DNA of 43,402 bases from Catenulispora sp. (lineage in GTDB: Bacteria; Actinomycetota; Actinomycetes; Streptomycetales; Catenulisporaceae): NCBI GenBank assembly GCA_013362315.1, contig JABFWL010000197.1, positions 1-43,402 on the forward strand, read 5' to 3'. The notes beneath the pieces are model-generated. The model did no database searches and had not been told where the DNA came from. It worked only from the letters and a program-made list of their open reading frames with translations. Numbering within the stretch: the first letter of the stretch is position 1; every line of letters begins with the position of its first letter. Below, in pieces: positions 27,134 to 32,205 of this stretch. The translations under genes and the position numbers were made by a program.

Positions 27134-27159
27134 GGCCGTCGGATTTCCGGCGGCCTTTT
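27134..27159 (+). terminator. Rho-independent terminator of the cyclophilin gene
   Basis: A 9-bp stem with one G-U pair (27134-27142 with 27147-27155), ATTT loop and a TTTT tract, with a further CTTTTTGG after it. The most classical terminator in the window. Confidence 0.88.
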
Positions 27160-27229
27160 GCTTTTTGGTTGAACCTTCTCGGATTCCAGGCGGGGGTGCT
27201 CCGGAATGCGAGACACTTTCGGGCGGTCG

Positions 27230-27258
27230 TTGACGGCGGCCCTTTGCGCTGTCACTCT
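27230..27258 (+). promoter_or_regulatory. Promoter of the ssu operon
   Basis: TTGACG (27230-27235), 17 bases, then CACTCT (27253-27258), a weak but acceptable -10 (A and T at the key positions). The expected start, seven or eight bases on, falls on the ATG of the leader peptide at 27266, so the leader is probably translated from a leaderless mRNA. Confidence 0.6.
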
Positions 27259-27265
27259 CAGTGCT

Positions 27266-27349
27266 ATGAACCCGAGCCGGCTCCTTGTGGCTCGCCGTCA
27301 CGTCGATCTGCGGCGGACCGCGAGCGCCATCTGTCGCTGCGGCTTCTAG
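27266..27349 (+). CDS. Cysteine-type leader peptide of the ssu operon (27 residues)
   Basis: The small frame begins MNPSRLLVARRHVDLRR and ends SAICRCGF before TAG. It contains the RRHVDL...SA-x-C core of the short actinobacterial leader peptides found before sulfur-assimilation genes, where ribosome stalling on Cys codons near the end couples cysteine supply to downstream expression. Here two Cys codons (TGT and TGC) lie four and two codons before the last sense codon. There is no ribosome site, and the promoter start falls on the ATG, as expected for a leaderless leader. Position, sequence and the operon that follows agree; attenuation itself is inferred. Confidence 0.85.
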   Translation: MNPSRLLVARRHVDLRRTASAICRCGF

Positions 27350-27482
27350 TCTTCGCCGGTTCCGGCCCTTTCATCGCTTCGGCAAAGCCGCTGTTGCGTT
27401 TTCTCAGTTCGGCTGCACCGAGAATGCCTGCACTGACAGCACACTGACAATCTGCCGCACCCATTTTTGCTTTACCCTTTTT
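27350..27482 (+). promoter_or_regulatory. Probable attenuator region between leader peptide and ssuE
   Basis: This 130-base untranslated stretch carries a GCCGG-TT-CCGGC palindrome just after the leader stop, and two mutually exclusive short pairings: CGGC (27380-27383) with GCCG (27387-27390), or AGCCG (27386-27390) with CGGCT (27410-27414). It ends at the ribosome site GAGGAG of ssuE. The switching model is a guess from these pairings. Confidence 0.5.
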
Positions 27483-27495
27483 GAGGAGCTTCGGC

Positions 27496-28074
27496 ATGCC
27501 CACCATTCTGGCTGTCTCCGGCAGCCCGTCGACGACGTCCCGCACCGCGTCGGCCACCGATCACGCACTGGCGCTGTTGCGGGCGCAAGGCCATACCGTG
27601 TCGCATGTCGCCGTCCGCGATCTGCCGGCCGGCGATCTGCTCTCCGGCTTCCGTGACACGCCGGCGCTGTGGAGCGCCGGCGACGCGGTCGCGCAGGCGG
27701 ACGGCATCGTCATAGCCACGCCGGTATACAAGGCTTCCTACACCGGGCTGCTCAAGGCGTTCCTCGACCTGCTGCCGGAGAACGCGCTGGCCGGCAAGGT
27801 GGTCCTGCCGCTGGTCACCGGGGGGACGATCGGGCATCTGCTGACCATCGACTACGCGCTGCGGCCGGTGCTGACCGCGCTCGGCGCCGACCATGTGGTG
27901 CAGGGCCGGTTCCTGCTCGACTCCGACATCATCCGCGGCGAGGCCGGCGGCACCCGGCTCACCGCCGAGGCCGAGCGCCGGCTGGCGGACTCGGTGGCCG
28001 CGTTCACCGCCGCGCTGGACCGTCGTGCGGCCGCCGCCCCGGCGCTGAAGCTGGTCGCGGGGGCGGCGAGATGA
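27496..28074 (+). CDS. ssuE: NADPH-dependent FMN reductase (SsuE-like)
   Basis: 192 residues. Supplies reduced FMN to the flavin monooxygenase encoded at the end of the operon. The flavodoxin-like fold shows VSGSPSTTSRT (phosphate loop), ATPVYKASYTGLLKAFLDLLP and LVTGGTIGHLL, all typical of SsuE/MsuE reductases. I start at the ATG at 27496, seven bases after GAGGAG; a TTG at 27481 in frame would precede the ribosome site. Its stop overlaps the ssuA start as ATGA. Confidence 0.92.
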   Translation: MPTILAVSGSPSTTSRTASATDHALALLRAQGHTVSHVAVRDLPAGDLLSGFRDTPALWSAGDAVAQADGIVIATPVYKASYTGLLKAFLDLLPENALAGKVVLPLVTGGTIGHLLTIDYALRPVLTALGADHVVQGRFLLDSDIIRGEAGGTRLTAEAERRLADSVAAFTAALDRRAAAAPALKLVAGAAR

Positions 28075-29081
28075 CCGCCACCAGCAGACGCGGCTTCCTG
28101 GGACTGGTCGGGGCCGCCGCGCTGACCACCGCCTGCGGCGCCTCCGGCAAGGGCGCCGGCAAGACCACCAAGCTGCGTTATCAGGGCAACGCCGGATCCG
28201 TCACCCTGCCCGAGCTGGCGGCCGACCTCGGATATCTGGGCACTGTCACCCTGCAGTGGGTCGGCAACACCACCAGCGGCCCGCAGGACATCCAGTCGGC
28301 GGCCACCGGTCAGACCGACTTCGGGGGCGCGTTCAACGGCGCCGTCGCCAAGCTCCACGCCGCCGGCGCCCCGATCACCGCTGTCATCAGCTACTACGGC
28401 GTCGACAAGGACTCCTACAACGGCTACTACACCCTGGCCGACAGTCCCATCTCCGGGGCGAGCGACCTGTTCGGCAAGAAGGTCGGCATGAACACGCTCG
28501 GCGCGCACTACGAAGCCGTGCTGGACATCTACCTCAACCGCAACGGCGTCACCGGTGACGCGGTGAAGAAGGTGGAGCCGCTGGTGGTGCCGCCGGTCAA
28601 CACCGAGCAGACCTTGCGCGCCCGGCAGATCGACGTCGGCTGCCTCGGCGGCATCCTGCGGGACAAGGCGCTCGCCGCCGGCGGCATCAAGCCGCTGTTC
28701 TCCGACTATGACCTGCTCGGCGAGTTCAGTGCCGGCACGTATGTGTTCCGCAACGACTTCATCGCGAAGAACCCTGAGACCGTCACCACCTTCACCACCG
28801 GCGTGGCCAAGGCCATCGAGTGGGCCCGCACCACGCCGCGCGACCAGGTCGTCGACCGCTTCACGAAGATCGTGCAGGCCCGCGGCCGCAACGAGGACAC
28901 CGCCACCCTGAAGTACTTCAAGTCCTTCGGGGTGGCCGGGACCGGCGGCGTGATCGCCGAGAAGGAGCTGACCACGTGGATCACCTGGCTGGAGCAGCAG
29001 GGCCAGATCCCGGCGGGCAAGGTCAAGGCCTCGGCCGTCTACACCAACAAGTTCAACCCCTTCGCGAAGGGAGGGTCCTGA
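28071..29081 (+). CDS. ssuA: Sulfonate/aliphatic-sulfur ABC transporter binding lipoprotein (SsuA-like)
   Basis: 336 residues. The N-terminus carries a twin-arginine-type motif (SRRGFLGL) and a lipobox ending TTAC (about residue 20), so it is probably folded before export and lipid-anchored. The rest is the SsuA/TauA-type periplasmic-binding fold (LRYQGNAGS, QSAATGQTDFGGAF, GKKVGMNTLGAHYEAV). It captures organosulfur compounds for the SsuBC transporter. Translationally coupled to ssuE. Exact ligand not known. Confidence 0.88.
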   Translation: MTATSRRGFLGLVGAAALTTACGASGKGAGKTTKLRYQGNAGSVTLPELAADLGYLGTVTLQWVGNTTSGPQDIQSAATGQTDFGGAFNGAVAKLHAAGAPITAVISYYGVDKDSYNGYYTLADSPISGASDLFGKKVGMNTLGAHYEAVLDIYLNRNGVTGDAVKKVEPLVVPPVNTEQTLRARQIDVGCLGGILRDKALAAGGIKPLFSDYDLLGEFSAGTYVFRNDFIAKNPETVTTFTTGVAKAIEWARTTPRDQVVDRFTKIVQARGRNEDTATLKYFKSFGVAGTGGVIAEKELTTWITWLEQQGQIPAGKVKASAVYTNKFNPFAKGGS

Positions 29082-29082
29082 C

Positions 29083-29895
29083 ATGACCGCGATCCGCCTG
29101 GACGGACTGGGCAAAACCTTCCCGGTCCGCGGCGGCGACACCTTCACCGCCCTGGACGGCGTCGACCTGGAGGTCGCGGACGGCGAGTTCCTGGTCGTCG
29201 TCGGCCCCAGCGGCTGCGGCAAGTCGACGCTGCTGGATCTGATCAGCGGCCTGACGAAGCCGACGGCCGGCCGGGTCCTGCTGGACGGGACGCCGGTCAC
29301 CGGCCCCGGCCTGGACCGCACCACCGTCTTCCAGCAGTACGCGCTGCTGCCGTGGCGCACCGCGCAGCGCAACGTCGAGTTCGCCCTGGAGGCCCGGCCG
29401 CGGCTGGACCGGCTCGGCCGCAAGGCGCGCGCCGAGCAGGCGCGCGAGCACTTGGCGCTGGTCGGCCTCAGCGGCTTCGAGGACCGCTATCCGCACGAGC
29501 TCTCCGGCGGCATGCGCCAGCGCGTCGCCATCGCCCGCGCGCTGGCGTCCGACCCGAAGGTGCTGCTGATGGACGAGCCGTTCGCGGCTCTGGACGCGCA
29601 GACCCGCGACGGTCTGCAGGAGGAGTTGCTGCGGATCTGGCAGCGGACCGGCACCACCGTGGTCTTCATCACCCACGGCATCGACGAGGCGGTGTTCCTC
29701 GGGCAGCGCGTCGCGGTCATGACGTCCCGGCCGGGGCAGATCAAGGAACTGGTCCAGGTGCGCCTCGGCGACCGGACGGCCGAGGCCGACGTGCGCTCCA
29801 GTCCGGAGTTCGCCGCCTACCGGCACGAAGTGTGGAGCCTGCTGCGCGACGAGGTGACGGTGGGCAGGGACAGGGAGGTCGTTTCCGTTGGCTGA
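29083..29895 (+). CDS. ssuB: ABC transporter ATP-binding protein (SsuB-like)
   Basis: 270 residues. Walker A GPSGCGKST (about residue 43), Q-loop QQYALLPW, signature LSGGMRQR, Walker B LLMDEPFAALD and H-loop FITHG are complete. Energises uptake through SsuC. Starts one base after the ssuA stop, and its end overlaps the ssuC start by eight bases. Confidence 0.94.
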   Translation: MTAIRLDGLGKTFPVRGGDTFTALDGVDLEVADGEFLVVVGPSGCGKSTLLDLISGLTKPTAGRVLLDGTPVTGPGLDRTTVFQQYALLPWRTAQRNVEFALEARPRLDRLGRKARAEQAREHLALVGLSGFEDRYPHELSGGMRQRVAIARALASDPKVLLMDEPFAALDAQTRDGLQEELLRIWQRTGTTVVFITHGIDEAVFLGQRVAVMTSRPGQIKELVQVRLGDRTAEADVRSSPEFAAYRHEVWSLLRDEVTVGRDREVVSVG

Positions 29896-30772
29896 GATAC
29901 CGCTGCTCCACGTGCACGACCCGGCCGGGGTGAACCCGGGCCGCGGGGCCGGGATCGTCCCCGGCGCGTCCGCGGCGAAGGGGGTCAGGGCCGTCGTCGC
30001 CGGCGCGGCGCAGGTGCTGACAACCGTCGGCAAGCGCACCGTCGCGATCGCCGCCTTCCTGGTGCTGTGGGAGGTCGCCCCGCGCCTCGGCCTGGTCGAC
30101 CGGACCTTCCTGGTGCCGTTCTCCGACGCCGTCAGGGCCCTGATCGAGCTGGCGGAGAACGGGCAGCTGTGGGACAACACCCGCGCCAGCCTGGGACGCT
30201 CGCTGGCCGGCTTCGGGATCGCCATCGCCGCCGGGGTCCCGCTGGGCCTGCTGATCGGCTGGTACCGGCCGGTCGCCGAGATCCTCGGGCCGCTGCTGGA
30301 GCTGTTCCGCAACACCGCCGCGCTGGCGCTGCTGCCGGTGTTCATCCTGCTGCTCGGGATCGGCGAGACGTCGAAGATCGCCATCGTCGTCTACGCCTGC
30401 ACCTGGCCGATCCTGCTGAACACGGTCAGCGCGGTGCGCAGCGTCGATCCGGTGCTGGTGAAGTCGGCGCGGTCGATGGCGCTGCCGGCGCCGCGGCTGT
30501 TCGCCAAGGTGATCCTGCCGGCCAGCGTGCCGACCATCTTCACCGGCATCCGGCTGGCCGGCTCCGGCTCGATCCTGGTGCTGATCGCCGCCGAGATGGT
30601 CGGCGCCAAGGCGGGCCTGGGCTACCTGGTCAACACCTCGCAGCAGAACTTCGCGATCCCCGACATGTATGCCGCGATCATCGCCATCTCGGTGCTCGGC
30701 CTGGTCTTCAACCAGCTCCTGGTAACGCTGGAACGCCGGCTGACGCGGTGGCGCCCGGCCGCGGGCGCCTGA
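29888..30772 (+). CDS. ssuC: ABC transporter permease (SsuC-like)
   Basis: 294 residues with about six membrane helices. The cytoplasmic loop that contacts the ATPase is ARSMALPAPRLFAKVILPASVPTIFTGIRLA (about residues 195-225), the conserved EAA loop of nitrate/sulfonate/taurine permeases. TTG start at 29888, nine bases after GGGAGG and inside ssuB. An N-terminal Gly/Pro-rich region of about 40 residues precedes the first helix. Confidence 0.92.
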   Translation: MAEIPLLHVHDPAGVNPGRGAGIVPGASAAKGVRAVVAGAAQVLTTVGKRTVAIAAFLVLWEVAPRLGLVDRTFLVPFSDAVRALIELAENGQLWDNTRASLGRSLAGFGIAIAAGVPLGLLIGWYRPVAEILGPLLELFRNTAALALLPVFILLLGIGETSKIAIVVYACTWPILLNTVSAVRSVDPVLVKSARSMALPAPRLFAKVILPASVPTIFTGIRLAGSGSILVLIAAEMVGAKAGLGYLVNTSQQNFAIPDMYAAIIAISVLGLVFNQLLVTLERRLTRWRPAAGA

Positions 30773-30852: not shown

Positions 30853-32205
30853 ATGACCGCCGAACCACGCCAGCTTCACCTGAACGCCTTCCTCATGACG
30901 CCCGGCCACCACGACGCCGCCTGGCGCCATCCGGACAGCCAGCCGCACCGCGCCACCGACGTCACCTACTTCCAGCAGCTCGCGCAGACCGCCGAGCGCG
31001 GCAAGCTCGACTCCATCTTCTTCGCCGACGGCCTGGCGGTGTGGGGACGGCTGCGCAGCAACGTCTCCGGCGGCCTGGAGCCGTTGACGCTGCTGGCCGC
31101 GATCGCCGCGGTCACCAGCCGGGTGGGTCTGATCGCCACCGCCTCGACCACCTTCAACGAACCCTTCCACCTGGCCCGCAAGTTCAGCTCGCTGGACCAC
31201 ATCTCCGGCGGCCGGGCCGGCTGGAACATCGTGACCTCCGGCAGCGTCACCGAGGCCCACAACTTCAACCTCGACGAGCACCTCGACCACGCCGTCCGCT
31301 ACCAGCGCGCCGCGGAGTTCCTGGAAGTCGCCACCGGGCTCTGGGACAGCTGGGACGACGACGCGGTGCTGCTGGACAAGGACGCGGGGATCTACGCCGA
31401 CCCGGACCGGGTCCACGAGATCCAGCACGTCGGCCCGTTCTTCCAGGTGCGCGGGCCGCTCAACGTCCAGCGCTCGCCGCAGGGCTGGCCGCTGCTGGTG
31501 CAGGCCGGCTCCTCCGAGGACGGCAAGGAGTTCGCGGCCCGCCACGCCGAGGCGGTGTTCACCGCGCAGCAGACCCTCGCCGAGGGCATCGCGTTCGCCC
31601 ACGACGTCCGGACCCGCGCCGCGGCTCACGGCCGTGAAGGGCTGCCGCTGATCCTGCCCGGCATCTGCCCGATCATCGGCGCCACCGAGGCCGAGGCCCG
31701 GGCGCTGGAGGACGAGCTGACCGCGCTGCAGGTCATCGACTACGGACTGGCTCAGCTCTCGAACATGCTCAACGTCGACCTGTCGGAGTTTCCGCTGGAC
31801 GGGCCGCTGCCCCAGCACATCCTGCCGACCGAGGACCAGGTCAACGGCAACAAGAGCCGCTTCACCCTGGTCGCCGACCTGGCCCGGCGCGAGCGCCTGA
31901 CCATCCGCCAGATCATCGCGCGGCTCGGCGGCGGCCGCGGCCACCGGGTGGTGGCCGGCACCCCGGAGCAGATCGCCGACGCCATCGAGAGCTGGTTCCT
32001 GGCCGGCGCCGCCGACGGCTTCAACATCATGCCGCCGATCCTGCCGACCGGCCTGGACGCCTTCGTGGACCACGTGGTGCCCGAACTCCAGCGCCGCGGC
32101 CTGTTCCGGACCGAGTACACCGGCACCACCCTGCGCGAGCACTACGGGCTGCCGCGCCCCGTCGGCTCCTTCTCAAAGCCCTTGGTGTCCGCCGGCTCGA
32201 TCTGA
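30853..32205 (+). CDS. NtaA/SnaA/DszA-family FMN-dependent monooxygenase
   Basis: 450 residues, a bacterial luciferase-like two-component monooxygenase that uses FMNH2 from SsuE. LHLNAFLMTPGHHDAAWRHP at the N-terminus and SGGRAGWNIVTS are hallmarks of the NtaA/SnaA/DszA group; SsuD itself is shorter (about 380) and starts differently. The operon context says it cleaves a C-S bond to release sulfite, as SsuD or DszA do, but the substrate is not known. AAGGA lies seven bases before the ATG. The 80-base gap after ssuC contains short CCCGA/CCGCA repeats. Confidence 0.9.
   Translation: MTAEPRQLHLNAFLMTPGHHDAAWRHPDSQPHRATDVTYFQQLAQTAERGKLDSIFFADGLAVWGRLRSNVSGGLEPLTLLAAIAAVTSRVGLIATASTTFNEPFHLARKFSSLDHISGGRAGWNIVTSGSVTEAHNFNLDEHLDHAVRYQRAAEFLEVATGLWDSWDDDAVLLDKDAGIYADPDRVHEIQHVGPFFQVRGPLNVQRSPQGWPLLVQAGSSEDGKEFAARHAEAVFTAQQTLAEGIAFAHDVRTRAAAHGREGLPLILPGICPIIGATEAEARALEDELTALQVIDYGLAQLSNMLNVDLSEFPLDGPLPQHILPTEDQVNGNKSRFTLVADLARRERLTIRQIIARLGGGRGHRVVAGTPEQIADAIESWFLAGAADGFNIMPPILPTGLDAFVDHVVPELQRRGLFRTEYTGTTLREHYGLPRPVGSFSKPLVSAGSI

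Follow-up and report, generated by a model that had tools for sequence, protein, structure and literature searches.

Short leaderless reading frames that respond to cysteine have been described in mycobacteria (Canestrari 2020, as cited in PMC9031893, PMC9094748 and PMC13236596), and the cysteine genes of M. smegmatis are, in a statement that cites the same work, under translation attenuation (PMC13236596). Cysteine leaders of mycobacterial cys operons and others had been noted by Seliverstov 2005 (PMC1262725), whose passages on them report leaders without terminators and suggest the involvement of Rho. Before the cysS gene of Rhodobacterales, the uORFC-8-2 motif is presented as a cysteine-codon upstream frame for which ribosome-mediated attenuation has been proposed (PMC8632094).

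Here, we describe a comparative analysis of a short frame upstream of ssuE in a 43,402-nucleotide stretch of DNA from a Catenulispora-like genome; "the window" denotes this whole stretch. An earlier note on this DNA had placed a 27-residue frame behind a TTGACG-17-CACTCT promoter shortly before ssuE. The positions are as it described, frame and promoter are conserved in relatives, and 146 bases separate the leader stop from the ssuE start. The encoded peptide is MNPSRLLVARRHVDLRRTASAICRCGF, with its TAG stop codon at 27347-27349. The leader and the elements around it are as follows.

27134..27155, plus strand: terminator-like hairpin of the upstream gene, then TTTTGCTTTT (terminator scan)
27206..27214, plus strand: box ATGCGAGAC upstream of the -35 element, conserved in the 8 ssuE relatives
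27230..27235, plus strand: -35 element TTGACG, identical in 8/8 ssuE relatives
27253..27258, plus strand: -10 element CACTCT, starting at -13 from the ATG, at the family-wide peak
27266..27349, plus strand: leader peptide frame, 27 codons and TAG, putatively leaderless (family match, relatives)
27278..27334, plus strand: core of 19 codons matched by NF042934 (protein residues 6-23 on profile positions 2-19)
27280..27286, plus strand: GCTCCTT in Leu codons, which might pair with the Shine-Dalgarno region of ssuE (prediction)
27290..27325, plus strand: possible hairpin in the core, GCUCGC...GCGAGC (RNAalifold, 8 relatives)
27332..27334, plus strand: TGT, leader codon 23, the invariant codon for Cys, proposed as the sensor (relatives and family comparison)
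27338..27340, plus strand: TGC, second Cys codon, not conserved among relatives

The two promoter elements are 17 nt apart, the -10 element is preceded by TGT in the manner of an extended -10, and the A of the leader ATG lies 8 positions past the last -10 base. A generic sigma-70 scan, whose -10 rule calls for at least four of six matches to TATAAT, found no promoters in the leader region. A 47-residue version of the leader, read from an in-frame ATG at 27206, was rejected since its start falls upstream of the conserved promoter. The box ATGCGAGAC, perhaps a regulator site, lies 15 bases ahead of the -35 element here and 14 in most relatives, one of which has ATACGAGAC instead. Further upstream, the terminator-like hairpin would set the leader transcript apart from the upstream gene, a weak argument on its own, as one such hairpin was found against a shuffle mean of 1.1.

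The leader matches the NCBIfam entry NF042934 ("putative leader peptide") with 36.2 bits (cut-off 27, E 3.1e-9), and with 35.6 bits in the genome search. Its scores with the mycobacterial equivalogs NF042936 and NF042933, 25.1 and 17.8 bits, both fall below their cut-off of 45, and Rfam gave no match in the window at gathering score. By this match over a curated cut-off, the present peptide joins a known actinobacterial family of cysteine leaders as a new member, the assignment that the earlier note had made from the peptide. With it, the family now reaches an organosulfur operon of a Catenulispora-like genome. NF042934 was found in 14/14 genomes of the bacterial family, in 258/394 genomes of the class (229 over the cut-off) and in 17 of the 246 genomes of a phylum draw, where only one match falls outside the class, an incomplete one that does not reach the cut-off; it is absent from 14/14 well-known control genomes. 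The source genome, which is 81.6% complete, carries at least 8 such leaders, seven found by peptide search and one more on contig C632; two further peptide-search matches (C423, C609) were discarded because long open frames contain them.

The nearest named relatives of SsuE come from Catenulispora and Catenulisporales assemblies, and among the SsuE-like loci of 14 family genomes the leader stands before ssuE at 8 of 11. All eight have TTGACG as the -35 element, followed after a spacer of 17-18 by CACTCT (2), CACTGT (1) or CATTCT (5). From the first Cys on, the ssuE leaders end in CRC, CCC, CPG or CPD. The sensor is therefore not the pair of Cys codons that the earlier note had named: the first Cys is conserved and encoded by TGT throughout, whereas the second is not conserved, since the ssuE leaders diverge past the first. 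A run of Cys codons is not found here, the sequence being CRC and the relatives sharing a single conserved Cys. Among degenerate codons at invariant residues, 16/18 are identical across the eight ssuE leaders versus 35/100 in SsuE itself (Fisher p 3e-5, relatedness ignored).

The spacing of promoter and start codon was compared across the family. Close upstream of the core, an in-frame ATG is present in 120 of 157 unique leaders, only GTG in 34 and neither in 3. In 56/120 ATG leaders, position -13 or -12 is the first base of a [TC]ANNNT hexamer; the next most frequent position has 13. Shine-Dalgarno-like 4-mers occur in only 18 of these 120, the base before the ATG is C in 77% of them, and the commonest place of the invariant Cys is codon 23 (34/120), which it also occupies here. 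The -10/ATG spacing of the present leader fits a family-wide leaderless design, and on these comparative grounds, with the -10 spacing conserved among relatives and at the family peak, the claim that the leader is leaderless probably stands.

One codon of these leaders is almost invariant across the family. We fetched 180 NF042934 matches, 60 from loci returned by searches and 120 picked from ranked lists, which span 117 genomes, 43 genera and 24 families. In this set, where strong matches are over-represented because of this way of choosing, the last core position is Cys in 180/180 leaders and its codon TGT in 179/180 (156/157 unique cores). Codons ending in G or C make up 0.6% (1/157) at the invariant Cys, as against 68-98% in the 18 other core columns. 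The sole TGC, in L203, precedes a Sir-like gene and looks genuine. The other Cys codons within the same leaders are TGC rather than TGT by 197 to 58, and those seven codons upstream of the invariant Cys by 71 to 4. TGT is common as well in the next two codons downstream (14/22 in the first, 12/24 in the second), mainly in leaders of the mycobacterial type with Cys runs. As background, the Sir genes at 25 of 30 loci have TGC 141 times and TGT 4 times; this count is preferred to the rough 302 to 91 of the downstream-gene frames, because those frames were selected with a simple score and include at least one that is misframed (L093). A check that made no use of the leader search applied the peptide pattern alone upstream of 41 SsuE-relative loci and 30 Sir loci, five of the latter having no usable anchor; it gave 20 SsuE and 20 Sir leaders, with TGT in 40/40, and 30 of these 40 lie outside the 180.

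The base that follows TGT is also constrained, being C in 110, T in 35, A in 11 and G in 1 of the 157 unique leaders. One codon later G occupies the same place in 49/152, compared with the 1/157 after TGT (Fisher p 2e-16), and it follows TGT in 3/40 gene-anchored leaders. Leader stop codons are TGA in 133/157 unique leaders. Within the 19-mer, all 157 unique cores have Arg6, Asp10, Arg13 and Cys19, and 156 have Leu11. A special role for AGC at Ser16 (87/96) was set aside, as AGC and TCN are two mutations apart and AGT does occur (5). In the source genome UGU is the rare Cys codon, and the two tRNA-Cys genes found (30/39 tRNA loci scanned) both have the anticodon GCA, so UGU would be read by G-U wobble.

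These comparisons suggest that the sensing point is one fixed Cys codon, nearly always TGT, and the lack of a 3' G suggests that the decoding context of that codon matters. The TGT rule points at the very codon where cysteine sensing would take place, and it reduces the choice between codon, peptide and RNA as sensor to a one-base test. A statement of the rule was not found in the open-licence literature, although Canestrari 2020, which is outside that set, may mention it; RRHVDL gave only an unrelated occurrence there.

The genes behind the leaders bear on what is being regulated. The downstream frames of 156 unique leaders fell into 26 clusters, one representative of each being named by Pfam, except that the SsuE cluster was named by a TIGRFAM-type profile match. 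The commonest clusters are rhodanese (27, one of them misframed), DUF4395 (26) and PALP enzyme (19), followed by nitrite/sulfite reductase (16), luciferase-like monooxygenase (13 + 1) and cysteine dioxygenase (10). Smaller ones are PAPS reductase (6), SBP_bac_5 (5), NMT1 (4 + 3), SsuE (4), sulfatase (4), TauD (3), permeases (2 + 1), flavin reductase (2) and DUF1684 (2), and eight genes occur once, among them APS kinase, CbiX and SBP56. By these profile names the targets are mostly genes of sulfur metabolism, the cysteine dioxygenase cluster and some transporters not being obviously so. The sulfur context that the earlier note had claimed is thus seen class-wide, and here in ssuE.

Several of these targets deserve separate mention. 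A distinct leader subtype, RRVHMDLVRYAGCVC, likewise with TGT, precedes cysteine dioxygenase in 10/156 cases (L146, L157, L195, L197, L201, L202 and four others); for a target that looks catabolic, a response in the other direction would seem to be needed. Genes for SBP56, a member of a dicarboxylate symporter family and DUF1684 proteins stand behind the leaders L220, L162, L028 and L221; this position may point to roles connected with sulfur for these proteins. DUF4395, found for example behind L106 and L087, is one of the two commonest downstream genes, a frequency in line with a sulfur role for this unknown protein.

Behind the present leader lie the following features.

27483..27489, plus strand: GAGGAGC, Shine-Dalgarno region of ssuE
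27496..28074, plus strand: ssuE, NADPH-dependent FMN reductase (TIGR03567, 211.2 bits, cut-off 164)
28071..29081, plus strand: NMT1/SsuA-like substrate-binding lipoprotein (PF09084; TIGR01728 under cut-off)
29083..29895, plus strand: ABC transporter ATPase of the taurine/nitrate/sulfonate type (profile matches)
29888..30772, plus strand: ABC transporter permease (PF00528)
30853..32205, plus strand: NtaA/DmoA family FMN-dependent monooxygenase (TIGR03860, 575.3 bits, cut-off 279.7)

The name "ssu operon" is loose, because the monooxygenase is of the NtaA/DmoA type and the binding protein scores 45.4 against the SsuA-family cut-off of 163.5 (TIGR01728). The monooxygenase was rejected as SsuD, having only 61.7 bits with TIGR03565, whose cut-off is 518.

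We propose, with a probability of about 0.78, that a leaderless cysteine leader of the NF042934 type controls this operon for organosulfur uptake and oxygenation and switches it on when Cys-tRNA is short. What comparison shows is the frame and its family membership, a promoter spacing of the leaderless kind, the invariance of the TGT and the setting among sulfur genes; that the ribosome stalls, that it does so for want of cysteine and that expression then goes up is what we infer. Transcription would start at the leader ATG or within a base or two of it, and the ribosome would translate 22 codons to reach the TGT at codon 23, to be wobble-read by tRNA-Cys GCA. With the ribosome at this codon, some 8-13 residues would separate the RRHVDL stretch from the peptidyl-transferase centre. 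A shortage of charged tRNA-Cys would make the ribosome dwell at codon 23, and ssuE and its downstream genes would be expressed more strongly, either if Rho were unable to load on a C-rich stretch past the leader or if the ssuE start were made accessible. Against this proposal stand the TGC exception L203; the single conserved Cys codon, unlike the poly-Cys mycobacterial leaders; and the cysteine dioxygenase targets, whose catabolic look is awkward for a switch that is on at low cysteine. So do the lack of an intrinsic terminator between leader and ssuE, the failure of simulated ribosomes to open the Shine-Dalgarno region, and a leader RNA that is not unusually stable (z -0.41).

How a stall might act on expression was approached by simulating a Shine-Dalgarno switch, in which the mean unpaired probability of that region was computed with a ribosome placed on the leader. 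For 130 usable leaders it was 0.227 in the free RNA, 0.271 with the ribosome at the Cys codon and 0.270 at the stop, and for the 109 leaders with a control block it was 0.247 free, 0.275 stalled and 0.258 in the control; shifts of more than 0.05 were upward in 47 leaders and downward in 19. In the eight ssuE leaders it went from 0.153 free to 0.121 with one ribosome at codon 23, and was 0.141 with two queued ribosomes, 0.199 with three and 0.130 in the control. As modelled, ribosomes did not open the ssuE Shine-Dalgarno region, and we judged that the simulation lends the switch no support. Between leader stop and Shine-Dalgarno region the composition of 130 leaders is C 0.434 versus G 0.276 (upstream control 0.341 versus 0.337); such a C-over-G stretch fits Rho but is not specific to it, and Rho is a possible agent.

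A peptide-based reading, in which the core stalls the ribosome from within the tunnel, the Cys codon sets only the register and a thiol or another sulfur signal might be the ligand, draws on core residues (Arg6, Asp10, Arg13, Cys19) that are invariant while their codons vary, and on the fixed spacing from core to Cys. Arrest by the peptide alone would leave unexplained why TGT and not TGC is required and why G is missing after it, and we consider this reading rather unlikely. A combination of the two ideas, that the whole family senses cysteine at one UGU which is followed by a non-G base and keeps a constant register to an arrest-prone peptide, is offered tentatively, at less than even odds; if true, the UGU sensor would unite a codon-starvation attenuator with nascent-chain arrest. 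Through its wobble-read UGU the sensor could follow the charging of tRNA-Cys and, perhaps, tRNA modification that depends on sulfur.

The same third-base bias at codon 19 of the core and the codon identity among the ssuE leaders of the genus could instead mark an RNA or DNA signal, made of the TGT, the next base and other leader bases, to which the peptide is secondary. RNAalifold predicts both a core hairpin and a pairing of the leader Leu codons with the ssuE Shine-Dalgarno region. With 13/14 pairs of the core hairpin invariant in the 8 relatives, these pairs give no covariation evidence, and the covariation analysis that the earlier note had suggested for the leader-ssuE region turned out not significant in these relatives, either for the core hairpin or for the leader/Shine-Dalgarno helix (117/500 shuffles reach the score). 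Other subfamilies did not reveal the core hairpin on inspection, and five aligned gene clusters had no conserved block past the leader, gene start regions excepted. A signal at the nucleotide level is doubtful.

Classical attenuation at an intrinsic terminator between leader and ssuE is very improbable: by eye, a pairing of GCGGCTT, close to the end of the leader, with AAGCCGC before a T-rich stretch is possible, but a terminator scan found none in 27350-27495 and this pairing is absent from the aligned relatives. A chance frame without function can be dismissed, for although short frames are common (14 of at least 20 residues overlap 27200-27700), this one scores over the curated NF042934 cut-off and is conserved with its promoter in 8 relatives, and the leader-versus-SsuE codon identity already contradicts chance.

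Compared with known systems, the preferred reading of a cysteine-codon leader shares with uORFC-8-2 an upstream frame with cysteine codons and a proposed ribosome-mediated attenuation; that motif, as its description in PMC8632094 has it, differs in its tandem Cys codons, the dominance of UGC and the presence of an intrinsic terminator. The leaders in the account of Seliverstov 2005 (PMC1262725) likewise combine a short frame, Cys codons near the stop and no terminator, and differ in having runs of Cys codons where the present leader has one conserved codon. The Cys-rich leaders Ms4527A and Ms5788A (NF042936, NF042933), the mycobacterial frames of Canestrari 2020, have a related core and stand before sulfur genes, as here, and their leaderless design is one that the present leader probably shares; the present leader lacks their Cys-codon run and scores under their cut-off of 45. 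In the relatives fetched for this mycobacterial type the invariant last Cys is likewise TGT. Closest of all is NF042934 itself, annotated as cis_reg_atten: the entry gives no mechanism past "putative leader peptide", we found no difference from it that excludes membership, and its core and invariant Cys are the same as those described here.
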